A stretch of DNA of 64,000 bases from positions 186,001-250,000 of the forward strand of contig CADAOY010000001.1 of NCBI GenBank assembly GCA_902789665.1, given 5' to 3'. The stretch comes from an uncultured Lachnospiraceae bacterium. GTDB taxonomy: Bacteria; Bacillota; Clostridia; Lachnospirales; Lachnospiraceae. This document shows positions 11,149 through 35,875 of the stretch, one piece after another; within the stretch, counting starts at the first letter, position 1, and every line of letters begins with the position of its first letter. The notes below the pieces were generated by a model, which searched no databases, was not told the DNA's origin, and worked only from the letters and a program-made list of their open reading frames with translations. A program made the position numbers and the translations under genes.

Positions 11149-12593
11149 GGTCCTTTATAAGAGGCATAAAAGAAGAGAAAAGAATTGCTAAGGAAAAAGA
11201 AGAAATCAAAGAAAAGTTACTTGGCGAAGACAGAATCAGACTTGATCTTCTTAAAAAAGCAGGTATTATTGACAATACCCATATTCATAATATTATAAAT
11301 GATGATTATGATTTAATTTTGTCGGAATGCCTTGATGGAGATGTATATATTTTTACATCCGAAGAGGGAGAGGCTTCTGTAGATTTAAATCTCTATGTGG
11401 CCAACATATTTGTTAATAGTCCTAAAATTGACGCACTTATGATAACAGAGGATGTGGATTATTACAGGACCTATTACAAGCCTGAATTTGCCCCTGAATC
11501 CATCCTGGAATACTTTTATCCTGGAAATATCTGGGCACTTAGGGGAATGGCTCTTAAAAAGGCTTCTGAGACATATAAAGAATATATATCATCTCTGGAC
11601 AATAAGGATAAATTTATATTTATTACAGCGGCGGTTATTACAGATGGGAATTCAGAAAGCATAATCAGGGATGATATGAGTTTATATCATCTGCCGCTTA
11701 AGGCTGCTAAGAACGGATGCCCTAAGGTTTTTGGCGGAAAAGAATATAAAAATATAATTCGCCCATTAATTGATAATACAGACAGATGGATTATGGAGGA
11801 TAAGTTTAATCCGCTTGTATCTGTGGTAATTCCTTCAAAGGATAATCCGGATATGCTTAATGAATGTATTAAATCCATAAAGAATGACAATTATAAGGAC
11901 GTGGAAATAATTGTTGTTGATAATGGAAGCAGCGATGAAAACAGGGGTAAAATCACCGCCCTTTCGACTTCCATTGGATTTAAATATATTTATGAAAAGA
12001 AGGATTTTAATTATTCTTATATGAACAATGTGGGAATAAAGGCCTCAAAGGGAGAATTAATATTACTACTTAATGATGATGTGACGCTTGTGGGTAATGC
12101 CCTTAAAGAAATGGCGTCAATGGCAATGAATTCATATATAGGCGCAGTTGGATGCAGGCTTTTATATCCGGACTCTGACAGAGTGCAGCATATAGGTGTT
12201 GTAAATGAAGAGGGAGGAGCCTATCATAAATGCCTTGGAGCAAGACTGCAGGATATTCCTTATGGCAGCGCTGAATATAATCAGAATGTAATGGCAGTTA
12301 CAGGGGCCTGCCTTATGGCCAGAAGAGCAGTATTAGATGCCGCAGGACTTCTTGATGAGAAACTGCCGGTAGCATACAATGATGTGGATCTTTGCTTTAA
12401 GATATATGAGAAGGGCTATCGTAATATAGTTTTAAATGATATATATATGTATCACCATGAGTCAGTTACCAGAGGTACTGATGCCATGGATGAAGCCAAG
12501 CTTGAAAGGCTGGCTAAAGAGAGAGAATACTTACAAAGCAAACATCAAAAGATTGGATTTAAAGATCCATATTACAGGAGAGATAACAGATAA
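11139..12593 (+). CDS. Family 2 glycosyltransferase
   Basis: 484 residues, overlapping the previous gene by 10 bases, with GAAGGAG just before the ATG. The first about 220 residues hold no motif that I recognise, although the part near residues 55-150 reads like a compact alpha/beta domain. The GT-A domain begins at about residue 226 with PLVSVVIPSKDNPDML, then IIVVDNGSSDE, the acidic metal-binding pocket LLLLNDDV and the acceptor-side AYNDVDLCFKIYEKGY. GT2 enzymes of this type transfer rhamnose or other sugars from nucleotide donors to a lipid-linked glycan on the inner membrane face. Donor and linkage cannot be read from sequence. Confidence 0.9.
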   Translation: MGIRSFIRGIKEEKRIAKEKEEIKEKLLGEDRIRLDLLKKAGIIDNTHIHNIINDDYDLILSECLDGDVYIFTSEEGEASVDLNLYVANIFVNSPKIDALMITEDVDYYRTYYKPEFAPESILEYFYPGNIWALRGMALKKASETYKEYISSLDNKDKFIFITAAVITDGNSESIIRDDMSLYHLPLKAAKNGCPKVFGGKEYKNIIRPLIDNTDRWIMEDKFNPLVSVVIPSKDNPDMLNECIKSIKNDNYKDVEIIVVDNGSSDENRGKITALSTSIGFKYIYEKKDFNYSYMNNVGIKASKGELILLLNDDVTLVGNALKEMASMAMNSYIGAVGCRLLYPDSDRVQHIGVVNEEGGAYHKCLGARLQDIPYGSAEYNQNVMAVTGACLMARRAVLDAAGLLDEKLPVAYNDVDLCFKIYEKGYRNIVLNDIYMYHHESVTRGTDAMDEAKLERLAKEREYLQSKHQKIGFKDPYYRRDNR

Positions 12594-14552
12594 ATGAGCG
12601 AAAGAGATCTGGAATTCTACAAAAGAGAATATGATAAGGTTCTTACTGAGAATCACAGACTTGCTACTGAACTGGAATTATCAGAATACAGAAGAACATC
12701 TGCTGAGGAGAATCTGGCAAGAATTAAAAACAGCTTTGCCTGGAAACTGACAAAGCCGGTGAGAGCAGTAAGAGTTGCTTTTATCAGAATGGCATATTAT
12801 AAAACTCCAAAGAATCTTGCCAAGAAGATTATCTATAAAAAAAGACTTGAGAAAGCCTATGTACTTCTTGGAACAGAATCTTTTCCAAATGAAGAAGAAG
12901 GGGAAAAACAGAGAAATACAAAGTTTGATAAAATGCCTCTTATTTCCATTCTTGTTCCTTTATATAATACGCCTGAAAAATTCCTTCGTGAGATGATTGA
13001 ATCAGTTTTGGTACAGACATATGGCAATTTCGAATTATGTCTTGCTGATGGTTCAGATGAGGAGCATTCTTTTGTAGGAGACATCTGCAAGGATTATGCT
13101 TCAAAAGATAAAAGGGTTGTATATAAAAAACTTGAAAAGAATGAAGGTATAAGCGGTAATACAAACAGATGTGTTGAATTATCAACCGGAGAATATATAG
13201 GATTATTTGATCATGATGATATTCTTCATCCAAGTGCTCTTTATGAATATGTTAAAGTGATTAATGAGCAGAATGCTGATTATATATACTGTGATGAAAT
13301 AACATTTGAAGGCGAAAGTATTAATGATATGATTACCCTTCATTTCAAGCCTGATTATGCAATTGATACTTTAAGGGCTAATAATTATATTTGCCATTTC
13401 AGTGTATTTAAAAGAAGCCTTCTTAAGGAAACAGAATTGTTCCGTAAAGAGTATGATGGAAGTCAGGATCATGATATGATTTTAAGACTTACATCTCTTG
13501 CCGAGAATGTTGTGCATGTTCCAAAGATTCTTTATTACTGGCGTTCTCATCCGGGTTCAGTTGCATCTGATATCAGTGCAAAATATTATGCAATTGATGC
13601 AGCCAAGAGAGCAGTACAGAATCATCTGGAAAGTTATGGAATATATAATACCATAATCAGCAGTACCAGGGCTTTCCCAACAATATTCAAGCTTGATTAT
13701 GAAATTCTTGAAAAGAAGAAAGTATCCGTCATTATTCCAAACAAGGATAATGTGGAAATGTTATCCAAGTGCCTGGAAGCACTTAAGAATCAGACATATG
13801 AGAATGTTGAAATTATTATTGCTGAGAATAACAGCGTAAAGGATGAAACATTCAAGTATTATGAGCAGTTAAAGAGTGAAGGCATAAAGGTAATAAAGTA
13901 CGACGGGGATTTTAACTTTTCTGCTATAAATAATATGGCAGCAAGGGAGGCTGAAGGAGATTACCTGCTTTTACTTAATAACGATGTGGTTATAACCACG
14001 GATAAGTTTATTGAAGAACTGCTAATGTATGCTCAGAGAAAAGACGTGGGTGCGGTTGGCTGTAAGTTATTATTCCCTAATGGAACCATTCAGCATGGCG
14101 GAATAATAATAGGTCTTGGAGCAGACAGAATAGCAGGACATATTCATTATGGAATGCAGGGCGATTATATCGGATATATGGGCAGACTGTGCTATGCACA
14201 GAATATGTCAGCAGTTACTGCGGCAGCCATGATGGTAAGTAAGGATAAATATCTTGAAGTCGGTGGTATGGACGAGGAACTTGCGGTTGCCTATAATGAT
14301 GTGGATTTCTGCCTTAAATTAAGAGAGAAGGGATATCTGAATATCTTTACTCCATTTGCTGAGGCGACTCATTATGAAAGTGCGTCAAGGGACTCATATG
14401 AGAAAGATGCAGCAGGCGAGAGATTTAAGAATGAGTGCCAGCACTTTAAGGACAGGTGGCAGGAAGTAATAGATAAGGGCGATCCTTACTATAATCCAAA
14501 TTTTAGTTTGAATGTAAGCGACTATTCACTTAAAATAGTAGTTGACAGATAG
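12594..14552 (+). CDS. Two-domain family 2 glycosyltransferase with N-terminal coiled coil
   Basis: 652 residues, starting at the base after the previous stop. Residues about 1-50 form a charged helical coiled coil rich in Glu, Arg and Leu. The first GT-A domain (about 115-350) has LISILVPLYNTPEKFL and GLFDHDDILHPSALYEY. The second (about 375-640) has KVSVIIPNKDNVEML, LLLLNNDVVITT and AYNDVDFCLKLREKGY. Such double GT2 proteins often add two different sugars, or act as polymerising enzymes on rhamnan-type glycans. The coiled coil could mediate assembly or chain-length control, by analogy with the coiled-coil ruler of WbdD; that is speculation. Alternative: the two domains are duplicated copies with one donor. 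Confidence 0.92.
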   Translation: MSERDLEFYKREYDKVLTENHRLATELELSEYRRTSAEENLARIKNSFAWKLTKPVRAVRVAFIRMAYYKTPKNLAKKIIYKKRLEKAYVLLGTESFPNEEEGEKQRNTKFDKMPLISILVPLYNTPEKFLREMIESVLVQTYGNFELCLADGSDEEHSFVGDICKDYASKDKRVVYKKLEKNEGISGNTNRCVELSTGEYIGLFDHDDILHPSALYEYVKVINEQNADYIYCDEITFEGESINDMITLHFKPDYAIDTLRANNYICHFSVFKRSLLKETELFRKEYDGSQDHDMILRLTSLAENVVHVPKILYYWRSHPGSVASDISAKYYAIDAAKRAVQNHLESYGIYNTIISSTRAFPTIFKLDYEILEKKKVSVIIPNKDNVEMLSKCLEALKNQTYENVEIIIAENNSVKDETFKYYEQLKSEGIKVIKYDGDFNFSAINNMAAREAEGDYLLLLNNDVVITTDKFIEELLMYAQRKDVGAVGCKLLFPNGTIQHGGIIIGLGADRIAGHIHYGMQGDYIGYMGRLCYAQNMSAVTAAAMMVSKDKYLEVGGMDEELAVAYNDVDFCLKLREKGYLNIFTPFAEATHYESASRDSYEKDAAGERFKNECQHFKDRWQEVIDKGDPYYNPNFSLNVSDYSLKIVVDR

Positions 14553-24896: not shown

Positions 24897-26045
24897 ATGA
24901 ATAAGGAATTAGAAGTAGAAAGTCGATGTATACACTTAAGTGAAGATGACAAACAATCAAGATATGGTTCAATAAGTTTTCCAATTTACCAGACTGCAAC
25001 TTTTGCTCATCCGGGTTTGGGACAGAGCACAGGTTATGATTACAGCAGAGTTCAGAATCCGACAAGAGAGCACCTGGAAAAAGTTGTGGCATCTCTGGAA
25101 AATGGAATTGATGCCATTGCATTCTCAACAGGTATGGCTGCAATTACTACTGTTCTGGATTTGTTTAAACCGGGAGATCACATAATTGCAGACAGAGATT
25201 TGTATGGTGGAACCACAAGATTATTTAATTCTATTTGCGAAAAGAATCTTATTGAATTTACTTATATTGATTTTAGTACGGATAATCCTGCAGATTATTT
25301 AAAGTCTAATACCAAAGCATTCTTTATAGAAACTCCTACCAATCCAATGATGAATATAACTGATATAAGATGGTGCGCTGATGTGGCTCATGAAAATGGA
25401 GCGATTCTGATAGTAGATAATACTTTTATGTCTCCATATCTTCAGAATCCTCTGGACTTGGGTGCAGATATTGTAGTTCACTCAGGAACCAAGTATCTGT
25501 CAGGTCACAATGATACGCTGGCGGGTTTTGCCATTGTTAAGGATGAGAAATTATCTGAAGACCTTCGTTATATATATAAAACTTCAGGCGCAAACCTTTC
25601 TCCATTTGACAGCTGGCTTGTTCTTAGAGGAATTCAGACTCTTGCAGTACGTATGGACAGAGCTCAGGAGAATGCACTTGAACTGGCAAAATGGCTTGAA
25701 AACAGAAAAGGACCGGTGGTCAGAGTTGTATATCCGGGACTTGAAAGTCATCCGGGTCATGAACTTCAGCTTAAACAGGCAAGAGGCTATGGTGCTATGC
25801 TTACATTCGAAGTGGATTCCTATGAATCTGTTAAACATATACTTGAGAATACCCGCATCATCCAGTATGCAGAAAGTCTGGGAGGTACGGAAACCCTTCT
25901 TACTTATCCTCTTACCCAGACTCATGCGGATGTGGATCCGAAGGAACTTGAGAAAAATGGAATTACTAAGGGAACTTTAAGAATGTCTGTTGGAATAGAA
26001 AACATTAAGGACCTGATTGCGGATCTGGATCAGGCTATAGGTTAG
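24897..26045 (+). CDS. Cys/Met-metabolism PLP enzyme (cystathionine gamma-synthase/lyase family)
   Basis: 382 residues. Family landmarks are FPIYQTATFAHPG, TGYDYSRVQNPTREHLEKVV, the PLP-stacking region YGGTTRLF, ETPTNPMMNITDI and the PLP lysine in VHSGTKYLSGHND. GGTETLLTYPLTQTHADV lies near the C-terminus. These enzymes act on cystathionine, homocysteine or O-acyl-homoserine; the precise reaction cannot be set by eye. AAGGAG precedes ATG. The next gene starts 3 bases after its stop and encodes another C-S lyase, which points to transsulfuration or to breakdown of S-substituted cysteine. Confidence 0.9.
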   Translation: MNKELEVESRCIHLSEDDKQSRYGSISFPIYQTATFAHPGLGQSTGYDYSRVQNPTREHLEKVVASLENGIDAIAFSTGMAAITTVLDLFKPGDHIIADRDLYGGTTRLFNSICEKNLIEFTYIDFSTDNPADYLKSNTKAFFIETPTNPMMNITDIRWCADVAHENGAILIVDNTFMSPYLQNPLDLGADIVVHSGTKYLSGHNDTLAGFAIVKDEKLSEDLRYIYKTSGANLSPFDSWLVLRGIQTLAVRMDRAQENALELAKWLENRKGPVVRVVYPGLESHPGHELQLKQARGYGAMLTFEVDSYESVKHILENTRIIQYAESLGGTETLLTYPLTQTHADVDPKELEKNGITKGTLRMSVGIENIKDLIADLDQAIG

Positions 26046-26048
26046 GAT

Positions 26049-27233
26049 ATGGGCGAGAGAAATTTAGATTTTACAACTGTATATGACAGAAATGGAACAA
26101 GGTGTCTAAAATATGATTTCAAAAAAGAAAGAGGACTTCCTGAAGATGTACTTCCATTCTGGGTGGCAGATATGGATTTCAAAATCTCTTCTTATATTGA
26201 GGACGCGCTCATTAATCAGGCTAAACATGGTATTTATGGTTATACGGAAGTAGATAATGAATATGCAGACTCAGTTGTTCGGTGGATAAAGAGACATTAT
26301 AACAGGGATGTTGAAAAAGAATGGTTTCATAAAGCGCCTGGCGTGGTTTTTGCCATAGCTACAGCTGTTAAAGCATTTAGCGAAAAAGATGATTATATAT
26401 TAATTAACCAGCCGGTATATTACCCGTTCAGCGAAGTTATAAGGGATAATGGCAGGAAGATTATCAGCAGCGACCTTGTAAATGATGGGAATGGATTCTA
26501 TACCATAGACTTCCATGACCTGGAAGAGAAGATACAAAAATACAGGCCAAAATTATATCTTCTTTGTTCGCCTCACAATCCAGTAGGGAGAGTGTGGGAT
26601 AAAGAGGAATTACAGAAACTTGGAGAGATTTGCAGGAAAAATGATGTGATAGTTTTCTCTGATGAAATTCATGCTGATTTTGTCTGGGGGAAGGAATTCA
26701 CCACTTTTGCCAATGCAGGTGAAGGATTTGAGAATTTCTCAATAACTGCATTGTCACCAAGTAAGACATTTAATATTGCAGGGCTTCAGGTGGCGGACCT
26801 TATAATAGCAAATCATGATTTATACAGGAAATATCATAAGGCTTATGATGCATCCGGAATGAGTCAGTTAAATGCAGCCGGTATAGTGGCTTCATTCGCA
26901 GCCTATGAGCATGGTGAAGAGTGGTTGAAAGAAGTTAAGAAAGTTATTGAGGCAAATATTGATTATGCCACTTTATATGTTAGAGAGAATCTGCCAAAAG
27001 TGAAACTTCGAAAACCGGAGGGCACATATCTTATATGGTTGGATTTTAGAGATTATGCTTTTAGCAATGATGAACTTGAGAATTTAATAATCAATAAGGC
27101 GAAACTTTGGCTGGACAGCGGAAGAATATTCGGAAAAACTGGAGAAGGCTTTCAACGAATAAATGTTGCCTGCCCTCAAAGTCTGCTTAAAGAAGCACTT
27201 GATAGAATTAAAAATGCACTGGAAGAAATTTAA
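26049..27233 (+). CDS. patB: MalY/PatB-type aminotransferase fold C-S lyase
   Basis: 394 residues. The PatB/MalY start (DFTTVYDRNGTRCLKYDF) and LPFWVADMDF are followed by LCSPHNPVGRVW, FSDEIHADFVW and the PLP lysine in ALSPSKTFNIAGLQ. The enzyme releases thiol, pyruvate and ammonia from cystathionine or other S-substituted cysteines. The 3-base spacing to the previous gene indicates one operon. The pair could degrade the same class of substrates through beta and gamma cleavage. In Bacillus subtilis PatB-type enzymes are beta-cystathionases; here a broader S-conjugate lyase role is my inference. Confidence 0.9.
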   Translation: MGERNLDFTTVYDRNGTRCLKYDFKKERGLPEDVLPFWVADMDFKISSYIEDALINQAKHGIYGYTEVDNEYADSVVRWIKRHYNRDVEKEWFHKAPGVVFAIATAVKAFSEKDDYILINQPVYYPFSEVIRDNGRKIISSDLVNDGNGFYTIDFHDLEEKIQKYRPKLYLLCSPHNPVGRVWDKEELQKLGEICRKNDVIVFSDEIHADFVWGKEFTTFANAGEGFENFSITALSPSKTFNIAGLQVADLIIANHDLYRKYHKAYDASGMSQLNAAGIVASFAAYEHGEEWLKEVKKVIEANIDYATLYVRENLPKVKLRKPEGTYLIWLDFRDYAFSNDELENLIINKAKLWLDSGRIFGKTGEGFQRINVACPQSLLKEALDRIKNALEEI

Positions 27234-27252
27234 ATTAAAGGAGGAATAGAAA

Positions 27253-28389
27253 ATGAGTTGTTGTGGAGGATCAGTAGCACCTGCTGCTGTATTGGGAGAA
27301 AAGAAATATAAGTCGGTTACAGATGGTAAGTATCCTGAACCAACAGAATTCTTGCCAATCACAGATGAGGATGTAAAGGATATTAAGCCAAGACCAAATA
27401 TTCAGAATACTGAGGTAGATGAAAACGGTAACTTTGTCAGACAGCAAAATCTTTTTACAGTTCCATTTGGCGATGAGGAAGGACTTAATGAAGTTGCTGC
27501 GGGAAAATATCGTCTTATATGGGCAAAGGGCTGTAACTGGTCAAACAGAGCTTCAATTGTACGTGAATTACTTGGACTTGATGAGAGTATCAGCATCAAT
27601 CTTGTAAATATGAGTTCAGCTGACATAGGTTACGGTTGGGAGTTCGTATATGATGAGAATCACAGAGATCCGGTACTTGGAACAAGATTCCTGGCAGAGC
27701 ATTATGCCAAAAGTATTCCGGGCTTTGATGGCAGGGCTACTGTGCCGGCATTAATTGATGTTACCACAGGAAAAGTCGCAAATAATGATTATCATAAACT
27801 GACTAATTATTTTGAAGTTGATTTTAGAAAATTCCATAAGGAGGGAGCACCTGATCTTTATCCTGAAGAATTGAGAGAAGAGATTGATAAATTAAATGAA
27901 TGGCTTTTCCATAATATTAATAATGGTGTATATAAAATTCAGTTTGCTGTAAGTTATAAGGCCTACCAGAATGCATATGATAATTTCTATGCAGCCATGG
28001 ATATTCTTGAAGACAGACTGTCTCATTCAAGGTTCTTATTTGGCGATTATGTAACGGATTCAGATGTAAGACTATATGTTACACTGGCTCGTCTTGACAG
28101 TGCATATGCGCAGAATATGGGCCCTACAAAGCACAGACTGGTAGATTATCCTAATCTCTGGGGATATGCAAGGGATTTGTGGCAGATTCCAGCTTTCCAG
28201 AATAATACATATTTTGTTGATTTTAGTGCTCATTTCCAATCTGATAAAAATGGTGGAGCAAGAAGGGAATTCTTATCATATACTGAAAGATTTGTAAGGA
28301 AAATTAACTTTGATGAACTGTGGGGAAGTGCACATGGTCGTCAGTGGTTATCCTCTGATCCGGCAAATAAATTTATAATTGAAAAATAG
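27253..28389 (+). CDS. Ecm4/YqjG-like thiol transferase (glutathionyl-hydroquinone reductase family), copy 1
   Basis: 378 residues, with AAAGGAGG before ATG. The N-terminal extension begins MSCCGGS. The thioredoxin-like part contains the family's active-site cysteine at residue 94 in WAKGCNWSNRAS, where classic enzymes have CPWAHR. DPVLGTRFLAEHY, GRATVPALIDVTTGKVANND (which fits the cis-Pro site) and the all-helical C-terminal GST domain (about 185-330, with RFLFGDYVTDSDVRLYVTLA) follow. Known relatives reduce glutathionyl-(hydro)quinones through a cysteine thiol exchange. Most Clostridia do not make glutathione, so the natural thiol or conjugate here is uncertain. It sits directly behind two C-S lyases. 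Confidence 0.85.
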   Translation: MSCCGGSVAPAAVLGEKKYKSVTDGKYPEPTEFLPITDEDVKDIKPRPNIQNTEVDENGNFVRQQNLFTVPFGDEEGLNEVAAGKYRLIWAKGCNWSNRASIVRELLGLDESISINLVNMSSADIGYGWEFVYDENHRDPVLGTRFLAEHYAKSIPGFDGRATVPALIDVTTGKVANNDYHKLTNYFEVDFRKFHKEGAPDLYPEELREEIDKLNEWLFHNINNGVYKIQFAVSYKAYQNAYDNFYAAMDILEDRLSHSRFLFGDYVTDSDVRLYVTLARLDSAYAQNMGPTKHRLVDYPNLWGYARDLWQIPAFQNNTYFVDFSAHFQSDKNGGARREFLSYTERFVRKINFDELWGSAHGRQWLSSDPANKFIIEK

Positions 28390-28400
28390 GAGGCGTAGAG

Positions 28401-29867
28401 ATGTCTTATATCGTACCTTTTCAAAATATAGGCTTATTTGAAACTACATTTAAGCATCAGATTAATAAGAATACGGGAAAAATAGAAGACAGGGAATTCG
28501 TTTTTAACAAACATTTCGGAAGAGGAGTGGATGACTTACCGGTTGAAACAGATCGCTATCGTATTATATGGATGCCGGGTTGTCCTCATTCCAACAAGGC
28601 GGTTATAACAGCAAGGTTATTAGGTCTTGATAATTATATAAGTATTGGCGAATGTGGAGTTTTAAGAGATCCAAGAGGCTGGGTATTCTCTGAAGATATA
28701 GGAGAAGTGGACCCGGTGCTTAAGATTCATTATCTGGATGATGCTTATCTTAAGGGTAATCCTGATTTTACAGGACGTTCAACCGTACCTGCAATTGCTG
28801 ATGTAAAGACAGGAGCCGTGGTGCAGAATGAAGCCTGGGATATTCCAAGATATCTGGTACAGGACTGGAGAGAGTATTATAAAGAAAATGCGCCGGAATT
28901 ATATCCGGAAAACCTGCGAAGTGAAATAGATGAAACTGTTACTTTTATAAAAGAAAAAGTAAATGCATATGCCTGTGGTTTTGCAAGAAGTCAGGAACAG
29001 TATGATAAAGGATATGTAATGTTCCATTCTGCTTTGGATGTGCTGGAAGAACTTCTTGGGGAAAGAAGATTCTTACATGGAGATTATATTACTTTATCTG
29101 ATATTCATCTTTATGTGGCTTTAATTAGATTTTATATTAATTATCATCTGGTATTCGGAGTTAATAAAAAAAGGCTTCAGGATTATCCAAATCTATGGGG
29201 TTATACCAAAGAATTGTTTCAGACTGACGGATTCTATGAATTTACAAAATTAGATGATATAAAAAAACATTATCAGCTTTCGCCTCATATGAGAGCGAAA
29301 CTTGGTAATGTATATGGTCTTATGGGAACAGGTCCGGATTACAGAGATTTATTTTCTGCTACTGATAGAAAGAAGCTATCATCTGATCCGGATAATATTT
29401 ATATTATAGCCAGAAGTGAAAGTCTTGATGCAAAGCTTTATGAGCATAAAAATGCGGAAGATGAAACAGCATATATAAAAAAGTTTATTGTCACTCCAAT
29501 TGAAAATGTTGCCAAAGCAACATTTCAGACTGATTTAAACAGATATGCTGCTGTATTGAAAGATTCTTTAATTAATATTGATAAAAGGCTCGGAAAGAGT
29601 AAATATTTGCTAGGTGATATATTAACAGAGGCGGATATATATCTTTACAGAACTCTTCTTAAACTGGATTATATTTATTATCATCTTTATAAACTGAATG
29701 CTTTCAAGAGTTTTGATTATAAGAATATAGCAAGATTTACAAAAGAGATTGCTTTAACAAGAAGTGATATCAAAGAGGAGATTATTGAAGAAAAGAAGGA
29801 CGCATATCTTAATAGGGATGACGCCTTCAACCCATATCATTTGGTATTTGGCGGACCTGAAGAGTAA
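28401..29867 (+). CDS. Ecm4/YqjG-like protein, copy 2, with an extra C-terminal GST-like helical domain
   Basis: 488 residues, about 110 longer than the other two copies. The active-site cysteine is residue 61 in WMPGCPHSNKA, and the N-terminal Cys-rich extension is missing. TGRSTVPAIADVKTGAVVQN gives the cis-Pro site. The first helical domain has RRFLHGDYITLSDIHLYVAL. A second helical unit at about 370-470 repeats the pattern (LGKSKYLLGDILTEADIYLY followed by two aromatic-rich helices), so the GST_C domain seems duplicated. AGGAGG precedes the start, and the gene lies 11 bases after copy 1. The strong divergence suggests a different substrate or a regulatory partner. A terminator ends this transcription unit. 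Confidence 0.82.
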   Translation: MSYIVPFQNIGLFETTFKHQINKNTGKIEDREFVFNKHFGRGVDDLPVETDRYRIIWMPGCPHSNKAVITARLLGLDNYISIGECGVLRDPRGWVFSEDIGEVDPVLKIHYLDDAYLKGNPDFTGRSTVPAIADVKTGAVVQNEAWDIPRYLVQDWREYYKENAPELYPENLRSEIDETVTFIKEKVNAYACGFARSQEQYDKGYVMFHSALDVLEELLGERRFLHGDYITLSDIHLYVALIRFYINYHLVFGVNKKRLQDYPNLWGYTKELFQTDGFYEFTKLDDIKKHYQLSPHMRAKLGNVYGLMGTGPDYRDLFSATDRKKLSSDPDNIYIIARSESLDAKLYEHKNAEDETAYIKKFIVTPIENVAKATFQTDLNRYAAVLKDSLINIDKRLGKSKYLLGDILTEADIYLYRTLLKLDYIYYHLYKLNAFKSFDYKNIARFTKEIALTRSDIKEEIIEEKKDAYLNRDDAFNPYHLVFGGPEE

Positions 29868-29894
29868 TAATATATCAATAAATCGAACATTAAG

Positions 29895-29940
29895 AAATAG
29901 GATGTGTTATAAGTTCGCTTTATAACTAGTCCTATTTTTT
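29895..29940 (+). terminator. Intrinsic terminator of the first sulfur operon
   Basis: The outer stem AAATAGGA/TCCTATTT is perfect. The inner stem GTTATAAG/CTTTATAAC is closed by a TTCG tetraloop with one bulge. The T-run follows at once (29935-29940). It separates 24897-29867 from the transporter unit. Confidence 0.88.
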
Positions 29941-29946
29941 ATGTAT

Positions 29947-29975
29947 TTTTCAAAAGGAAAAAGCCATGCTAATAT
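29947..29975 (+). promoter_or_regulatory. Candidate promoter of the leader-peptide/transporter operon
   Basis: TTTTCA (29947-29952) and TAATAT (29970-29975) are 17 bases apart. The match to consensus is moderate, but the place, just after a terminator and before a leader ORF, supports it. Confidence 0.5.
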
Positions 29976-29982
29976 AACACTT

Positions 29983-30008
29983 GTTACAGGGGTTACAAAA
30001 CTTGTAAC
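29983..30008 (+). promoter_or_regulatory. Palindrome with repeated GTTAC half-sites, candidate operator or RNA hairpin
   Basis: GTTACAA-AAC-TTGTAAC (29992-30008) is a perfect 7-bp inverted repeat. A third half-site GTTAC lies at 29983-29987. It falls just downstream of the predicted transcription start and ends 2 bases before the GGAGG of the leader peptide. It could therefore bind a repressor or fold over that ribosome binding site. Confidence 0.55.
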
Positions 30009-30023
30009 AGGGAGGAAGAAAAA

Positions 30024-30101
30024 ATGTCAAAAAGAATTTTTGGAAGAAACGCAAAGGAACGATGTTGTCTTAACCACCAAAACATGCGAATGTGCATGTA
30101 G
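30024..30101 (+). CDS. Cys/Met-rich leader peptide upstream of the cystine-type transporter
   Basis: A 25-codon ORF with a strong GGAGG (30011-30015) 8 bases before its ATG, ending in TAG. The last 12 residues are CCLNHQNMRMCM; in all it has three Cys and four Met including the start. It lies 61 bases before the transporter gene and inside its predicted leader RNA. Many operons for amino acid use are controlled by ribosome stalling on leader codons of the same amino acid, and Cys-rich leader peptides for sulfur genes are known in actinobacteria. I infer that low charged Cys-tRNA (or Met-tRNA) stalls ribosomes here. No terminator hairpin follows, so the effect would be on translation or on Rho-dependent termination. 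Confidence 0.72.
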   Translation: MSKRIFGRNAKERCCLNHQNMRMCM

Positions 30102-30162
30102 GATAAAAAAATTATGATGCATAGAAAAATAAACAGAGATAAAAAAGGAGTAAATATAAAAA

Positions 30163-31077
30163 ATGAAAATCAAATCAGTATCAAAATTATTAACATTGGC
30201 ATTAAGTGCTTCACTTTTAGTAGGAACACTTGCAGGATGCCAGGGAACAAATGTAGAGAATGTAGATGTTGAACAGGATGTTGTTGAAGAAGTAGTTGAA
30301 GAAGTAGTTGAAGACGTAGAAGCAGATGAACCTGTAGAGGTTAGAACAATATATGCAGTTACAGGTGCTTCACCAAGACCTTTCGTATATTATGATGACG
30401 ATGATAATCTTACAGGTCAGAATTATGAACTTGTAAATGCAGTATTCGAGAAACTTCCACAGTATGAACTTGTTTGGGAGATAACAGATTTCCCTTCAAT
30501 TTTCGCAGGACTTGATTCAGATAAGTATCAGCTTGGTGTTAACAACTTCGCTCGTAATGCAGAGCGTGAAGAAAAATATCTTTTCACAGATCCTATCTTC
30601 TCAAATGCTTACATCGTAGTAGCAAATAAGGATGTTGATCTTCCGGATGAATTAAGTGTTGAAGATCTTGCAGGACTCAGCTTCGTTGGACAGGCAGCTG
30701 TTAATGTAACAACACTTATTGAGAATTACAATGATGAGAATCCTGATAATCCTGTAGAAATCAATTATACAGAAGAAGATCTTAACATCCAGTTAACAGA
30801 TATTGAGAATGGTAAGTATGATTTCACAATTATTGATAAGCCAATGTATTTTGGTTTCTATCAGCCTGAATTTGGTTTTGATCTTCATGCTATTTCACTT
30901 GAGGGTTATGGCGTAGGTGAAGGAATGGACAGCTTCCTTATTGTAAGCAAGACAGAGGAGAATGAACAACTTGTTGAAGATATCAATGCAGCACTTCGTG
31001 AAGTAATTGAAGAGGGTACATCTAAGGAAATCAATGAGAAATATTTTGGTGATGACTATTCACCATCATATGAATAA
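30163..31077 (+). CDS. Amino acid ABC importer, substrate-binding lipoprotein
   Basis: 304 residues. The signal peptide has a lipobox LAGC (Cys at about residue 26), followed by an acidic Val/Glu-rich linker (about 30-55). The rest is a family 3 periplasmic-type binding protein (SBP_bac_3): FVYYDDDDNLTGQNYELVNAVF, the SIFAGLDSDKYQLGVNNFAR region with ERxxKY-like EREEKYLFTDPIF, and the C-terminal lobe with YDFTIIDKPM. It captures a polar amino acid outside the membrane and gives it to the permease. Its leader peptide and sulfur neighbours favour cystine or an S-substituted cysteine. AAAAGGAG precedes ATG. Confidence 0.9.
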   Translation: MKIKSVSKLLTLALSASLLVGTLAGCQGTNVENVDVEQDVVEEVVEEVVEDVEADEPVEVRTIYAVTGASPRPFVYYDDDDNLTGQNYELVNAVFEKLPQYELVWEITDFPSIFAGLDSDKYQLGVNNFARNAEREEKYLFTDPIFSNAYIVVANKDVDLPDELSVEDLAGLSFVGQAAVNVTTLIENYNDENPDNPVEINYTEEDLNIQLTDIENGKYDFTIIDKPMYFGFYQPEFGFDLHAISLEGYGVGEGMDSFLIVSKTEENEQLVEDINAALREVIEEGTSKEINEKYFGDDYSPSYE

Positions 31078-31097
31078 AAAGATGAATAATGATAAAT

Positions 31098-31122
31098 ACC
31101 CGGCTTAATTGCCGGGTGTTTT
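31098..31122 (+). terminator. Hairpin/terminator between binding protein and permease
   Basis: ACCCGGC/GCCGGGT form a perfect 7-bp stem with loop TTAATT, followed by GTTTTATT. A short T-run suggests partial termination or 3'-end protection, which would make more binding protein than permease. Confidence 0.75.
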
Positions 31123-31148
31123 ATTAAGAAGTCGGGAGAGAGAAGAAA

Positions 31149-31871
31149 ATGGCAAAATTATTTGATGCGGCACTTGTTTTTACGCAGATTCCAAAACTGC
31201 TTAAATATTTGCCTACAACTTTATATTTAACACTTATAGCATTGATTATAGGTTTGGCAGTTGGATTATTAATAGCAGTGGTTCGTATTAATAAGGTGCC
31301 TGTATTAAGTCAGCTTGCAGTAACTTTTGTATCAATAATGAGAGGAACACCAATTATTGTACAGTTATATATTACATATTTCGGTATACCAATCGCACTT
31401 AAATATTTTAATTATTACAACGGAACTGACTATGACATTAATGCCATACCCGGAATAGTTTTTGCCATGGTTGCTCTTGGACTAAATCAGGCAGCTTTCG
31501 ATTCAGAAACCATCAGATCCGCCATTCAGTCGGTTGATAAAGGACAGATAGAGGCGGCCAAGTCCATGGGTATGACAGGATTACAGGTTTTAAGAAGAAT
31601 TACTCTTCCACAGGCCATAACTGTTGCATTACTGCCACTGGGTAATTCAATTATTGCACTTATTAAAGGCACATCACTGGCCTTCACCTGCTCAGTAGTA
31701 GAAATAACAGCAGCTGCCAAAATCACTGCCGGAAAAAGCTACAGATATTTTGAAGCATATTGCTCCATTGCAATTATATATTGGGTAATTACTTTCCTTC
31801 TTGAGAGAATTATGGTCTTTCTTGAAAAGAAAACTTCCATACCTGATGAGCCGAAGGAGGTGGAAGCATGA
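31149..31871 (+). CDS. Amino acid ABC importer, permease (HisM/TcyL-type)
   Basis: 240 residues with about five membrane helices. The family start TLYLTLIALIIGLAVGLLIA, SIMRGTPIIVQLYITYFGIP and the EAA loop region EAAKSMGMTGLQVLRRITLP are clear, followed by QAITVALLPLGNSIIALIKGT. The single permease gene implies a homodimer. The stop overlaps the start of the ATPase gene by 4 bases. AGAG precedes ATG. Confidence 0.93.
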   Translation: MAKLFDAALVFTQIPKLLKYLPTTLYLTLIALIIGLAVGLLIAVVRINKVPVLSQLAVTFVSIMRGTPIIVQLYITYFGIPIALKYFNYYNGTDYDINAIPGIVFAMVALGLNQAAFDSETIRSAIQSVDKGQIEAAKSMGMTGLQVLRRITLPQAITVALLPLGNSIIALIKGTSLAFTCSVVEITAAAKITAGKSYRYFEAYCSIAIIYWVITFLLERIMVFLEKKTSIPDEPKEVEA

Positions 31872-32635
31872 GCTTAATTGAGATTAAAGGATTAAAAAAG
31901 AAATTTGGTAATAATGTAGTTTTGGATGGAGTTGATTTAAATATTGAAAAAGGAGAAGTAGTTGCAATTATCGGTCCTTCCGGAACAGGTAAGTCTACAC
32001 TCCTTAGGTGTTTAAATCTTCTGGAAAAACCGGAAGCGGGAACAGTTAAATTTGGTGATAAAACTTATGACCTGACAAGTAAAAATAAAAAAGAAAAATT
32101 AGCCTTAAGACAACATACTGAAATGGTATTCCAGCAGTTTAATCTTTTCAAGAATAAAGATGCTTTATCAAATGTTATGGAAGGTCTGGTAGTTGTTAAG
32201 AAGGTTCCAAAAGAAGAAGCTAAGAAAAAAGCTCTTGAAGAAATCGAAAAGGTTGGAATGAGTGACAGATTATATCACTATCCAAAACATTTATCTGGCG
32301 GTCAGCAGCAAAGAGTTGCCATAGCAAGAGCGCTGGCTCTTGAACCGGAATTATTATTAATGGATGAGCCGACATCGGCTCTTGATCCGGAACTGGTTAA
32401 TGAAGTACTTCTTACGATAAAAAGAGTTGCAGCAGAAGGTAATACCATACTTTTAGTAACTCATGAAATGAATTTTGTAAAGTCAGTAGCCAACAGGATT
32501 ATATTTTTGGAAAATGGCCGAATTGTTGCAGATGGAACGCCGAAGGAGATTTTTGAAAATCCGACCAATGAAAGATTAAAGACTTTCCTTCGTAATATTA
32601 ATATGCTGGAAAGCCCTGATAACTATGTAATATAA
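31868..32635 (+). CDS. Amino acid ABC importer, ATPase (GlnQ/TcyN-type)
   Basis: 255 residues. Walker A GPSGTGKST, Q-loop MVFQQFNLFKN, signature LSGGQQQRVAIARALAL, Walker B LLLMDEPTSALDP and H-loop VTHEMNFVKSVANRI are all intact. An insertion of Lys-rich sequence (KNKKEKLALRQHTE) lies between Walker A and the Q-loop, as is usual in this family. It powers uptake through the permease encoded just before it. GGAGG within the permease's last codons drives translation. Confidence 0.95.
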   Translation: MSLIEIKGLKKKFGNNVVLDGVDLNIEKGEVVAIIGPSGTGKSTLLRCLNLLEKPEAGTVKFGDKTYDLTSKNKKEKLALRQHTEMVFQQFNLFKNKDALSNVMEGLVVVKKVPKEEAKKKALEEIEKVGMSDRLYHYPKHLSGGQQQRVAIARALALEPELLLMDEPTSALDPELVNEVLLTIKRVAAEGNTILLVTHEMNFVKSVANRIIFLENGRIVADGTPKEIFENPTNERLKTFLRNINMLESPDNYVI

Positions 32636-32647
32636 AGGAGAGAAAAA

Positions 32648-33796
32648 ATGGGATGCGGAGATTACAACGTAGAAGAAATAAATAATATAACATATTCTGA
32701 CGAACTGGCAGAAGCAGATGCAAAGGAAAGAGGAGTCCTGCCAAGACCTCAGGAGATTAAGGCTGAGATAAATGCGCGCGGGGCTTTTATCCGTCAGCCT
32801 AACAGATTTATAACACCATTCGGTAATAATGAGGGTGATTTAAAAGCAGAAAAAGGAAGATATCATTTGTTCTGGGCAAAAGGATGCCACTGGTCAAACA
32901 GAGCATCAATAACGAGAGAGTTATTAGGTCTTGAAGATACCATCAGTATCTCAATAGTAGACCATACAGGTGTGGCTAATATATATGGTTGGGGATTTAC
33001 AGATCAGCCTAACAGACAGGATGCCACAACAGGACTTAAGTTCCTTAGTGAGGCGTACAGAAATGCTGATCCTGATTACAGGGGAAGAGCAACTGTTCCG
33101 GCACTTGTAGATAAGGAAACACTTAAGGTAGTTAATAATGATTATCACAGATTAACCAATTACTTACAGGTTTACTTCCGTGAGTTCCAGAGTCCTGATG
33201 CGCCGGATCTTTATCCGGTAGCTCTGCGTGAAGAGATAGACAGACTTAATGACTGGTTATTTCCGAATATAAATAATGCTCATTATCGTATGGCATTTTG
33301 TCAAAGCCTTGTTGCATATAATGAAGCATATGATGATTTCTTTGCAGCAATGGACAAACTGGATAAGAGACTTGAAAATCAGAGATTTTTATTTGGAGAT
33401 TATGTAACAGATTCAGATATAAGATTCTTTGTTACTCTTACAAGATGGGATTCATATTATTATAAGAATTTGGGACCACAGAAAAAACGAATGGTAGACC
33501 ACAAGAATATCTGGGCTTATGCAAGAGACCTTTATGAGATTCCTGCATTTAAGAACAATACGTATTTCAAGGATTTCTCAAGAGTACCTTCAAAGCCTGG
33601 CATATTCAAATCATATAACGAAAGATTTGTGGATCAGATTGATTTTGAAGGTTTATGGTCAGCGCCACAGAATCGAAAAGTATTAAGCAGAACACCTGAC
33701 GAGAAATTTTTAAGACACAGGGCAGGTGAAACTGTGGACGAATACACAACAGTTATTCAGCCGTCACGCTGGAATACACCTGGAGCAGAGGTATGA
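32648..33796 (+). CDS. Ecm4/YqjG-like thiol transferase, copy 3
   Basis: 382 residues, with AAAGGAG before ATG. It is close to copy 1 over its whole length: active-site cysteine 80 in WAKGCHWSNRAS, GRATVPALVDKETLKVVNND, and RFLFGDYVTDSDIRFFVTLT. Its N-terminus begins MGCGDY where copy 1 has MSCCGG, so a Cys-Gly start is a shared trait. The C-terminal about 45 residues (after YNERFVDQIDFEGLWS) extend the family core. Lying between a cystine-type ABC importer and an acetyltransferase, it probably acts on the imported compound. The stop overlaps the GNAT start (ATGA). Confidence 0.85.
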   Translation: MGCGDYNVEEINNITYSDELAEADAKERGVLPRPQEIKAEINARGAFIRQPNRFITPFGNNEGDLKAEKGRYHLFWAKGCHWSNRASITRELLGLEDTISISIVDHTGVANIYGWGFTDQPNRQDATTGLKFLSEAYRNADPDYRGRATVPALVDKETLKVVNNDYHRLTNYLQVYFREFQSPDAPDLYPVALREEIDRLNDWLFPNINNAHYRMAFCQSLVAYNEAYDDFFAAMDKLDKRLENQRFLFGDYVTDSDIRFFVTLTRWDSYYYKNLGPQKKRMVDHKNIWAYARDLYEIPAFKNNTYFKDFSRVPSKPGIFKSYNERFVDQIDFEGLWSAPQNRKVLSRTPDEKFLRHRAGETVDEYTTVIQPSRWNTPGAEV

Positions 33797-34773
33797 TTAC
33801 ATATATAGATGATATTGAAAAAATAAATATCGATGAACTGGCAGAATTGCTTTATGAGTCGCTTCCTGTAAGAAGAAAAGATAGCAAAACTGATATTAAA
33901 AAAGCTTATGAGGGCACAACTTATGCCCTCTTTGGCTTTGTAGATAATGAACTGGCAGGGGCAGTAAGAGTATTGTCTGACAATATTGAATGGACAATTA
34001 TTTCGGAAATTGCAGTAAAAGAAAAATACCGTTATCAGGGAATAGGAAAAGGTCTTATTAATAAAGTTCTGGAAAAGTTTAAAGGCCATGAGATTTTTAC
34101 CTATACATATTATGACAGCCTGGAATTCTATGAGGCTCTTGGATTTAAAAGATCCAAAAATGCCTTTACATATGGAGGGTTTAATGGAGAATATTTAGAA
34201 GAAGGTCTGGATAATAAAGAATTCTATTTAAAAAACGGATTTAAATATGAGACTGAATTTTATCCGTTTGCGGGAATTTTTCCGGTAGGTCAAAAGAGTA
34301 ATAAAGATTTATCAGGTGTAACAATTAGATACAGCACAGAGCCTGTTAAGAATTATGTAGGTATAAATAATTTACTTATTAGGGCATTTGGCGGCCATGA
34401 TAGAAATGTGGTTACAACCACGAAAGCATTTGATGAAAGCCGATATGTGTCTTACGCATTTGATGGAGAGAAAGTTGTAGGCTGCGCAAGAGCAGTATCA
34501 GATGGTGTTCTTCAGGCACTGATTCTTAATGTGGCAGTGGATCCTGATTATCAGGGACTTCATATTGGCGGGAAAGTGGTTGAGAATCTTTGCAGGCAGA
34601 TGAAAGGACAGAATCTGTTTTTAAATACTCATCCGGGAGGAGTGGGATTTTATAACAGACTTCCGTATAAGAGAAATAAAACTGCGCTTTTATATCCGGC
34701 ACATCCGGACATGCCTGATGACATAGCCAAAGGTTTTGTACTTCCGAAAGGATTTAAATTTGCTGATGAATAA
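33793..34773 (+). CDS. Tandem GNAT-family N-acetyltransferase
   Basis: 326 residues with two GNAT units. The first (about 30-130) has IISEIAVKEKYRYQGIGKGL, a good acetyl-CoA-binding Q/RxxGxG/A motif, and FYEALGFKRS. The second (about 185-310) has ALILNVAVDPDYQGLHIGGK and FYNRLPYKRNK. The start overlaps the previous stop by 4 bases. In the Bacillus S-alkyl-cysteine salvage operons an N-acetyltransferase modifies the cysteine conjugate before C-S cleavage and an M20 enzyme removes the acetyl group later. The order here (importer, Ecm4-like, GNAT, M20) fits such a scheme, which is my inference. Confidence 0.85.
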   Translation: MITYIDDIEKINIDELAELLYESLPVRRKDSKTDIKKAYEGTTYALFGFVDNELAGAVRVLSDNIEWTIISEIAVKEKYRYQGIGKGLINKVLEKFKGHEIFTYTYYDSLEFYEALGFKRSKNAFTYGGFNGEYLEEGLDNKEFYLKNGFKYETEFYPFAGIFPVGQKSNKDLSGVTIRYSTEPVKNYVGINNLLIRAFGGHDRNVVTTTKAFDESRYVSYAFDGEKVVGCARAVSDGVLQALILNVAVDPDYQGLHIGGKVVENLCRQMKGQNLFLNTHPGGVGFYNRLPYKRNKTALLYPAHPDMPDDIAKGFVLPKGFKFADE

Positions 34774-35875
34774 CGATGAAAATGAAATAATTGAATTATT
34801 CCTAAAACTTACAAGTATAGATGCAGAAAGTTTTAATGAACGTAAAATAGCTGATGCAATAATAGAGGAGCTTAAGGTTCTTGGAATTGAGGCACATGAA
34901 GATGATGCTGCATATAAGTTATCCGGTAATGCGGGTAATATATATGCTTCATTGGAAGGAGAGTCAGATAAGGATCCTGTCCTTCTGTCATCTCATTTGG
35001 ACACTGTAGTTCCGGGTAATGGTAAGAAGCCGGTATTTGAAAATGGAATTATTAAAAGTGATGGCAAAACCGTACTTGGTGCTGATGATGTGGCGGGTAT
35101 AGTTGAAATAATATCTGCAATTAAAAGAATAATAAAAAGTGGTAAAAAACACAGAAAAATAGAATTATTATTTCCTGTGGCAGAAGAAGTATATACCAAG
35201 GGAGCATCAGTATTTGATTATTCTATCCTTGAATCCAAAGAAGCCTATTGTCTTGATTTGAGCGGAGATGTTGGCTCGGCTGTTATTAATGCTCCGACTC
35301 TTATTTCTTTTGAAATCATTATTAAAGGAAAGGCGGCTCACGCAGGTTTTGCCCCATGGGAAGGAATAAATGCCATAGAAGCAGCATCAAAAGCCATAGC
35401 CTTAATTAAACAGGGAAAAGTTGATGATAATTCCACTCTTAACATAGGAACCATAAATGGTGGGAATGCTACCAATATTGTTTCTTCAGAATGTGTAATT
35501 AAGGGTGAAATAAGAAGTTATATTCATGACAGAGCTTTGGAATTATATGAAGATATGCTTAAAATCTTTAAAACTGAAGCATCATCAGTTGGCGCAGATG
35601 TTCAGGGTGAATATGAAATACATATCATTGCCTATAAAGTTGATGAAAAGTCCAATGTTGTTAAAAGATTTATAGAATCCTGTGAAAGCATTGGCCTTAA
35701 GCCTGAACTTAGAAGTTCCTTTGGAGGCTCCGATAATCATCAGTTTAATGCCAATGGAATTAAAGGCATTGTATTAAGCTGTGGTATGGAAAATGTGCAT
35801 ACAGTTAATGAGTATATAAAAGTGGAAAATTTAATTAAAGGAACTGATTTGGTTGAGCAGATAATTCTTTCTTGA
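34766..35875 (+). CDS. M20-family metallopeptidase (PepT-like)
   Basis: 369 residues from ATG 34766 (TTG 34760 is a possible alternative). Metal ligands fit the family: LSSHLDTVVPG (His, Asp), LGADDVAGIVEI (bridging Asp), FPVAEEVYTKGA (Glu pair), YCLDLSG (Asp) and the late VHTVNEYIK (His). The dimerisation/lid domain is about 175-280, with KGKAAHAGFAPWEG. M20 members are di/tripeptidases or N-acyl-amino-acid deacylases, and the overall pattern is closest to peptidase T-like proteins. It overlaps the GNAT gene by 8 bases. In this setting it could hydrolyse Cys-containing peptides or deacetylate an N-acetyl-Cys conjugate. Confidence 0.88.
   Translation: MNNDENEIIELFLKLTSIDAESFNERKIADAIIEELKVLGIEAHEDDAAYKLSGNAGNIYASLEGESDKDPVLLSSHLDTVVPGNGKKPVFENGIIKSDGKTVLGADDVAGIVEIISAIKRIIKSGKKHRKIELLFPVAEEVYTKGASVFDYSILESKEAYCLDLSGDVGSAVINAPTLISFEIIIKGKAAHAGFAPWEGINAIEAASKAIALIKQGKVDDNSTLNIGTINGGNATNIVSSECVIKGEIRSYIHDRALELYEDMLKIFKTEASSVGADVQGEYEIHIIAYKVDEKSNVVKRFIESCESIGLKPELRSSFGGSDNHQFNANGIKGIVLSCGMENVHTVNEYIKVENLIKGTDLVEQIILS

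Follow-up and report, generated by a model that had tools for sequence, protein, structure and literature searches.

A candidate cysteine-scavenging gene cluster with three xi-class transferases in a Lachnospiraceae bacterium

Introduction

In Bacillus subtilis, the scm (yxe; S-(2-succino)cysteine, 2SC), yha and ytn systems recover cysteine from S-conjugates by a strategy of acetylation, breakdown and deacetylation (PMC12757645, PMC9706529). Each system places an acetyltransferase and an M20 hydrolase around a cleaving enzyme, which is a flavin monooxygenase or the lyase 2SL, and scm also comes with ATP-binding cassette (ABC) importer genes. In 2SL variants from Enterococcus italicus and Dickeya dadantii, the lyase replaces the monooxygenase of an scm-type cluster for 2SC, and it should work without oxygen (PMC9706529). 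The described bacterial routes that we found for S-conjugate recovery rely either on an enzyme that needs oxygen or on a single specific lyase, and a literature search covering few subscription papers returned no general route by which anaerobes use cysteine conjugates. Gut and rumen anaerobes should meet many such compounds, from plant phenolics, mercapturates and drug conjugates. Here, we analyze a ten-gene cluster at positions 24897-35875 of a 64-kb stretch of DNA (the window, meaning the whole stretch analyzed) from an uncultured Lachnospiraceae bacterium, in which an importer, two pyridoxal phosphate (PLP) enzymes, a tandem GNAT acetyltransferase and an M20 hydrolase accompany three Ecm4/YqjG-like, or xi-class, transferases, named EcmA, EcmB and EcmC. 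An earlier reading of this DNA from its letters (the original prediction) had proposed oxygen-independent salvage of S-conjugated cysteine.

Cysteine acquisition is very probably the role of this cluster. The fuller reading, to which we assign a probability of roughly 45%, is that of a module that scavenges cysteine during starvation, uses a small thiol other than glutathione and cleaves S-conjugates reductively. As in scm-type salvage, importer, acetyltransferase and M20 families co-occur in the cluster, a likeness that concerns families and not activities. In place of the monooxygenase or 2SL stand the xi-class transferases together with a PatB-family lyase and a Cys/Met-metabolism PLP enzyme, and the M20 hydrolase is PepT-like. 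Unlike the window transferases, 2SL is a lyase that releases fumarate, and 'transferase' words occur 0 times in the main text of PMC9706529. A search of the bacterium's own genome (91.5% complete), covering PF00296 alone among flavin monooxygenases, gave no match at E 0.1, in agreement with the missing monooxygenase of the original prediction. Because neither the monooxygenase nor the scm-type deacetylase subfamily was found, we class the cluster as working like the scm strategy rather than as a member of it; it would be a further variant of acetylation, breakdown and deacetylation in which another enzyme does the breakdown and additional lyases take part.

Recurrence of the neighborhood

Ecm4-like genes are genuinely linked to importer, lyase, GNAT and M20 genes. 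In an even draw of 397 genomes from the window's family, a less biased sample than the named set described below, 21 genomes carried Ecm4-like genes, that is, 20 besides the bacterium's own. The importer (permease plus ATPase) lay nearby in 14 of these 20 (11 at stricter identity), a lyase in 10, any GNAT in 15, M20 in 8 and CysK in 6, and 15 of the genomes showed at least two partner kinds. Control regions of 19.9 kb each, taken from eight of the same genomes, gave 0/20 for each partner kind at the same thresholds, with only below-threshold matches, weak ones to ATPases (24-35%) and one each to CysK (29%) and LysR (23%). The identity thresholds were fixed after the first neighborhood results had been seen, and under the looser ones permeases at 34-36% and ATPases at 45-47% count as importer genes in genomes G005 and G1059; some of the 20 genomes contributed several regions, and each control region was counted singly. 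Contig ends truncate regions in this draw as well. Three of the 20 (G091, G073 and G1048) lack any partner kind, and in these the contig is short or breaks off ~1 kb or less from the gene; the G091 contig breaks off at an importer-type ATPase (62%). Since a search of the bacterium's own genome with EcmA matched only the three cluster genes, and since the neighborhood recurs while the controls yielded nothing, the association exceeds chance. The linkage that the original prediction anticipated was therefore found, and within this draw Ecm4-like genes do not occur mostly without the importer or lyases.

The named set consists of the 79 best-matching loci from a scan of 84,980 species genomes; it is biased, and many of its loci end at contig ends. 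At least one of five partner kinds lay near the Ecm4-like gene in 69 of the 79 loci (importer 40, lyase 30, GNAT 50, M20 39, CysK 23). Three of the ten loci without partners are short contigs and seven are Bacillales, each of the latter with a neighboring GNAT of another group. An eighth Bacillales locus, L116, counts as partnered only through a 43% PLP-enzyme match at its far end. Across the 95 loci L029-L123, cysteine synthase (26/95) and a LysR regulator (19/95) were further recurrent neighbors. Three pairs of these loci hold the same DNA (L030/L060, L033/L052 and L038/L082), and L159 overlaps L075, so the family draw and the named set are not independent. Lachnospiraceae, Clostridium, Paenibacillus, Streptococcus, Enterococcus, Treponema and Gilliamella all have the set, though its gene order differs and it is not always complete. 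Wider draws were sparser, with Ecm4-like genes in 6/390 other genomes of the class and 2/397 of the phylum, and the distribution is patchy, with no Ecm4-like gene found in G120, which belongs to the same genus as the bacterium. Five fetched genomes outside the 20 (G371, G334, G479, G514 and G676) had permease plus ATPase in 2/5 at the looser thresholds, M20 in 1/5 and lyase or GNAT in 0/5.

The thiol-binding site of the transferases

All three proteins are assigned to the xi class, EcmA by both sequence and modeled fold. EcmA matches ten xi-class PDB chains strongly (E 2e-66 to 1.9e-38; 3m1g at 2e-66, 4pts at 6.3e-65 and YqjG, 3r3e, at 1.3e-43), plus 5lkb at 4.4e-26. The first 32 PDB fold matches of its model (predicted local distance difference test score, pLDDT, 88.1) are all xi-class chains, led by Gordonia and Corynebacterium proteins. 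Identity to EcmA is 38% for EcmB and 51% for EcmC. In glutathione-bound ScECM4, the gamma-glutamyl group is held at its amine and carboxylate by E173 and S174, and the glycyl carboxylate is held by R155 (PMC5063366). We aligned 169 distinct Ecm4-like proteins from fetched loci and the three window proteins onto E. coli YqjG, leaving open reading frames (ORFs) shorter than 250 amino acids (aa) and seven identical copies out of the motif counts. Arg stands at the R155 position in 170/172 proteins and the catalytic Cys, present in EcmA, EcmB and EcmC, is carried by 170/172, while the Glu-Ser pair is kept in 2/172 and NDY is found in 151. ScECM4, YqjG and PcpF, all glutathionyl-hydroquinone reductases, share with the window proteins the fold, the catalytic Cys, the first two Tyr, the Trp and the carboxylate-binding Arg. 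The window proteins differ in that Glu-Ser has become Asp-Tyr (EcmA, EcmC) or Glu-Ala (EcmB), and CPWA, present in 61/169 relatives, has become CNWS, CHWS and CPHS, respectively. The third Tyr of the catalytic triad aligns as F, Y and P in EcmA, EcmB and EcmC, where the alignment is uncertain.

Loss of Glu-Ser with retention of Arg would fit a thiol that has a free carboxylate and no gamma-glutamyl group, such as cysteine, N-acetylcysteine or Cys-Gly, and judging from these residues the cluster transferases probably use a thiol other than glutathione. Among solved structures, NES is found in 6gzf, 4uss and 6gc9, and NDY or NDF in 3m1g and 4pts. The closest solved relative, 3m1g, which we take to be the Corynebacterium glutamicum mycothiol S-transferase MstX, has an ND[YF] glutathione-site (G-site) type like EcmA and EcmC, and differs in its CPWAHR active site and in having Gly where R155 of ScECM4 aligns. 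MstX is described as mycothiol-using (PMC6815410), and use of gamma-glutamylcysteine is reported for the archaeon from which 6gzf derives (PMC6345682). In a tree with its root among the NES proteins, all six of these stand apart from 172 others (support 0.956), and EcmA, EcmB and EcmC fall into a derived clade of 110 (support 1.0), whose active sites are mostly C[HN]WS or CPH. The two aligned proteins that keep Glu-Ser (L148 and L149) show no partner in the 20-kb surroundings in their genomes. Streptococcus loxodontisalivarius has a cluster with two copies, NDF and NDY, and on a different contig an NES protein with 62% identity to YqjG; the readings for L206-L208, which were taken from a neighboring copy instead of their own, were left out of this comparison. 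Four Gilliamella genomes with glutamate-cysteine ligase have one Ecm4-like match each, of the NDY type. For bacillithiol, no BshC match was found in the bacterium's own genome.

Gene content of the cluster

All genes lie on one strand in two tight units with every ORF open (Table 1), and the gene families listed in the original prediction agree with the matches. Unit 1 (24897-29867) comprises the two PLP enzymes, EcmA and EcmB, with intergenic spacings of 3, 19 and 11 bases; 295 bases separate it from unit 2 (30163-35875), where the spacings are 71, -4, 12, -4 and -8 bases, three of them overlaps. The M20 gene is better started at the ATG at 34766, which overlaps the stop of the GNAT gene. A G+C-rich hairpin occurs at window positions 31098-31117, between the binding-protein and permease genes; such hairpins are often seen where a binding protein is made in excess. 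An Rfam scan of the window gave nothing reaching the gathering score and hence no curated riboswitch or T-box, and a promoter scan was uninformative (47 found vs 42.0, s.d. 4.9, in shuffles).

Table 1. Features of the cluster in window coordinates
Feature	Positions	Strand	Basis or remarks
Cys/Met-metabolism PLP enzyme (cystathionine gamma-lyase/synthase-like), first in unit 1	24897..26045	+	PF01053 E 4.9e-140
PatB-family C-S beta-lyase	26049..27233	+	TIGR04350 428.7 bits, cut-off 340
Xi-class transferase EcmA	27253..28389	+	active site CNWSNR, G-site NDY
Xi-class transferase EcmB	28401..29867	+	488 aa, active site CPHSNK, G-site NEA, extra C-terminal GST_C
Putative 25-codon cysteine leader ORF MSKRIFGRNAKERCCLNHQNMRMCM	30024..30101	+	upstream of importer, Shine-Dalgarno-like sequence
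Substrate-binding lipoprotein, amino-acid ABC importer	30163..31077	+	PF00497 (SBP_bac_3)
ABC permease, cystine type	31149..31871	+	PF00528 (BPD_transp_1)
ABC ATPase, cystine type	31868..32635	+	ABC_tran; best NCBIfam TcyN
Xi-class transferase EcmC	32648..33796	+	active site CHWSNR, G-site NDY
Tandem GNAT acetyltransferase	33793..34773	+	PF00583 in two stretches
M20 metallohydrolase, PepT-like	34766..35875	+	TIGR01883

Of the two PLP enzymes that had been proposed as C-S lyases, the PatB protein passes TIGR04350 and matches PDB PatB 6qp3 at E 7.7e-97, but the first enzyme, although a clear PF01053 member, passes none of 25 listed NCBIfam cut-offs; its closest solved sequence is 7d7o, named cystathionine gamma-lyase/homocysteine desulfhydrase. 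The cystine-type label for the importer likewise holds in part. The best NCBIfam names are cystine ABC transporter permease (170.8 bits, cut-off 300) and, for the ATPase, TcyN (320.5 bits, cut-off 406), but all three parts miss the curated equivalog cut-offs (TcyJLN type) and the binding protein has no clear NCBIfam name. Its best PDB sequences are 4eq9 (E 6.4e-35) and 4c0r (3.4e-34), taken to be streptococcal glutathione-binding GshT, ahead of YtmK, 2o1m (2.3e-22). An attempt to read the importer's ligand from its sequence was ambiguous between glutathione and cystine. The tandem GNAT model (pLDDT 80.1) has tandem-GNAT folds among its matches; as a guide to substrate, fold comparison gave superfamily-level matches only (VipF, the clavulanate tandem GNAT, glucosamine acetyltransferase and MshD, at template modeling scores of about 0.4-0.5). 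The scm-like M20 part was confirmed as to family, but the protein is PepT-like: it scores 302.9 bits with TIGR01883 (cut-off 274.25), matches PDB Peptidase T 3gb0 at E 9.7e-69 and fails the TIGR01891 amidohydrolases (68 bits, cut-off 153.75), presumably the subfamily of the N-acetylcysteine deacetylase.

The importer names also fit another proposal, in which cystine or mixed disulfides are taken up, the Ecm4-like proteins act as glutaredoxin-like disulfide reductases without C-S cleavage, and PatB and the Cys/Met PLP enzyme degrade cystine or cysteine. The range of activities reported for MstX, which is a thiol transferase, dehydroascorbate reductase and mycothiolyl-hydroquinone reductase (PMC6815410), is in line with this. 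Cystine reduction alone hardly accounts for the several divergent paralogues in many clusters or for the frequency of GNAT in the sampled family genomes, and we hold this proposal to be rather unlikely.

A second proposal takes the cue from the binding protein and the peptidase-like M20: glutathione, gamma-glutamylcysteine or their conjugates would enter through a GshT-like importer and lose the gamma-glutamyl group, M20 would serve as a Cys-Gly-type peptidase, and the Ecm4-like enzymes would act on glutathione conjugates. A class-II glutamine amidotransferase near a ligase gene of the bacterium's own genome also speaks for it. Elsewhere in that genome (L127:6181-9676, contig G000:C5), the amidotransferase, a 472-aa protein and a stand-alone glutamate-cysteine ligase domain lie side by side, and similar class-II amidotransferases occur near the clusters in L084, L108, L118 and L143. 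The L127 amidotransferase scores 62.9 bits with TIGR03442 (EgtC), under the cut-off of 218.65, and passes PF13230; a reading of the 472-aa protein as a ligase, made by eye, was dropped, as it has no Pfam or NCBIfam match. Against glutathione salvage stand the missing gamma-glutamyl clamp in nearly all aligned proteins and the position of the glutathione-type enzyme of S. loxodontisalivarius outside the cluster. The GshT likeness is weak evidence, since a Listeria protein that shares 30% identity with GshT, TcyK, fails to bind glutathione (PMC9239247). This proposal appears improbable.

Cysteine-rich small reading frames upstream of cluster genes

The small ORF upstream of the importer (Table 1) has a counterpart in the relative L090, where a similar ORF, MRKMFLGKRAVGRCCLYFKDNRMCR, precedes the binding-protein gene (L090:10081). 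Cys-codon-rich small ORFs with Shine-Dalgarno-like sequences were also seen upstream of cluster genes in L040, L049, L050, L084, L099, L102, L105, L107 and L108. Counts were made in L029-L123 for genes with an upstream gap of at least 100 bases, with ATPase genes and the window excluded. ORFs with at least four Cys in ten codons precede 8/142 cluster genes and 0/408 other genes (Fisher p 1.7e-5); mononucleotide shuffles predict 0.5, and the antisense strand gives 1/142. The window's ORF meets a looser criterion of a Shine-Dalgarno-like sequence plus CC, found for 17/142 cluster and 2/408 other genes (p 4.9e-9), a criterion picked after candidate ORFs had been seen and one that probably lets in a few of the 17 by chance. 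Because the loci are related to each other, both p values overstate the case. These ORFs may possibly encode cysteine leader peptides in Bacillota. Cysteine leader peptides are known from mycobacteria.

A hairpin before a T-run, at -15 kcal/mol or better, follows the ORFs in L108, L084, L107 and L040, with weaker ones in L099, L039, L105 and L049 (an uncontrolled count). None was found after the leader ORF in the window, L090, L121, L102 or either L050 case; a classical attenuator, a possible mechanism, was not adopted. The Cys-rich ORFs point to cysteine supply as the controlled quantity. They bear in the same way on a third proposal, that the cluster serves the detoxification or repair of quinone conjugates and the cysteine genes are merely co-located. 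Xi-class enzymes do act on glutathionyl-hydroquinones (PMC5063366), but the recurrent linkage with importer, lyase and cysteine synthase, together with the leader ORFs, argues for sulfur supply, and we regard this proposal as very improbable.

Proposed function

In the scavenging module that we favor, the importer would bring in S-substituted cysteine, as thioether conjugates and/or mixed disulfides, and GNAT would cap some or all of these substrates at their amino group. The Ecm4-like enzymes would then use their conserved cysteine to attack the sulfur of the substrate. The substituent would leave, and the mixed disulfide so formed would be resolved by a second small thiol, which would be cysteine, N-acetylcysteine or Cys-Gly in place of glutathione. 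From the products, the M20 hydrolase and the lyases would yield cysteine or sulfide, and sulfide would be refixed by cysteine synthase, whose gene is often linked. The whole route would need no oxygen. C-S cleavage by thiol exchange is a hypothetical step; it is plausible, and better constrained than in the original prediction. A general form of the scheme, in which a new xi-class clade splits N-acetylated cysteine conjugates independently of oxygen, with N-acetylcysteine or cysteine made by the pathway as thiol cofactor and control by Cys-codon leaders, seems unlikely.

Several findings weigh against the module as a whole. In the named set, importer and lyase occur together in only 17/79 loci and the full set of importer, lyase, GNAT and M20 in 10/79, and the seven Bacillales loci have none of the five partner kinds. 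Within the transferases, EcmB (NEA) departs from the NDY pattern, two of the window proteins have His or Asn for the Pro of CPWA, and no third catalytic Tyr was seen in EcmA or EcmC; even the xi-class chemistry may therefore differ. The glutamate-cysteine ligase domain in the bacterium's own genome passes PF04262 (as a GshF-like protein it scores 289.8 bits, under the cut-off of 425, and covers the ligase half only), so gamma-glutamylcysteine may be made. The binding protein ranks GshT-like sequences first. The M20 hydrolase is PepT-like, and the genome has no TIGR01891 match over the cut-off, the sole match at E 1e-10 being this M20 gene; the acetylation-cleavage-deacetylation scheme is thus not closed. 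At a limit of at least three Cys in ten codons, leader ORFs number 15/142 in sense vs 11/142 in antisense (other genes 10/408), which leaves only the limit of four telling, and the window's own ORF misses the limit of three. Disulfide reduction alone would fit the gene set too.

What stands of the original interpretation is the cysteine-acquisition role, the linkage and the lack of a PF00296 monooxygenase, but the link is not universal, as the partnerless Bacillales show. Its suggestion of novelty holds for the gene combination, of which no account was found in the literature searched, but not for an oxygen-independent replacement of the monooxygenase as such, already published for 2SC in the form of 2SL (PMC9706529). 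Built around a probably glutathione-independent offshoot of a thoroughly studied class of enzymes, this widespread cluster supplies specific genes for testing and leads one to ask which small thiol these organisms use.

Related arrangements

Fused proteins suggest that parts of the cluster work together. Two Ecm4-like active sites, CPWAHR followed by CHWSNR, occur in one protein in Lacrimispora (L055:3365-5338 and L105:9977-11734), and in L107:5994-7685 a GNAT domain is fused to a Cys/Met-metabolism PLP enzyme. In the Bacillales loci L106, L111, L115, L116, L117, L119, L120 and L123, a GNAT belonging to another group comes after the Ecm4-like gene (checked against Pfam for L120 alone). Seven loci (L036, L050, L081, L083, L087, L091 and L112) have a different ABC importer with binding protein, permease and ATPase, mostly without the cystine-type one and often accompanied by one or two cysteine synthase genes; a sulfonate-type reading of this importer, made by eye, was abandoned, the binding protein having only a PF12974 match under the cut-off. 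In E. coli K-12 (L124:6025-7011 and 10342-13001), yqjG lies ~3 kb from cyuA/cyuP, which encode a cysteine desulfidase and an importer, possibly by coincidence.

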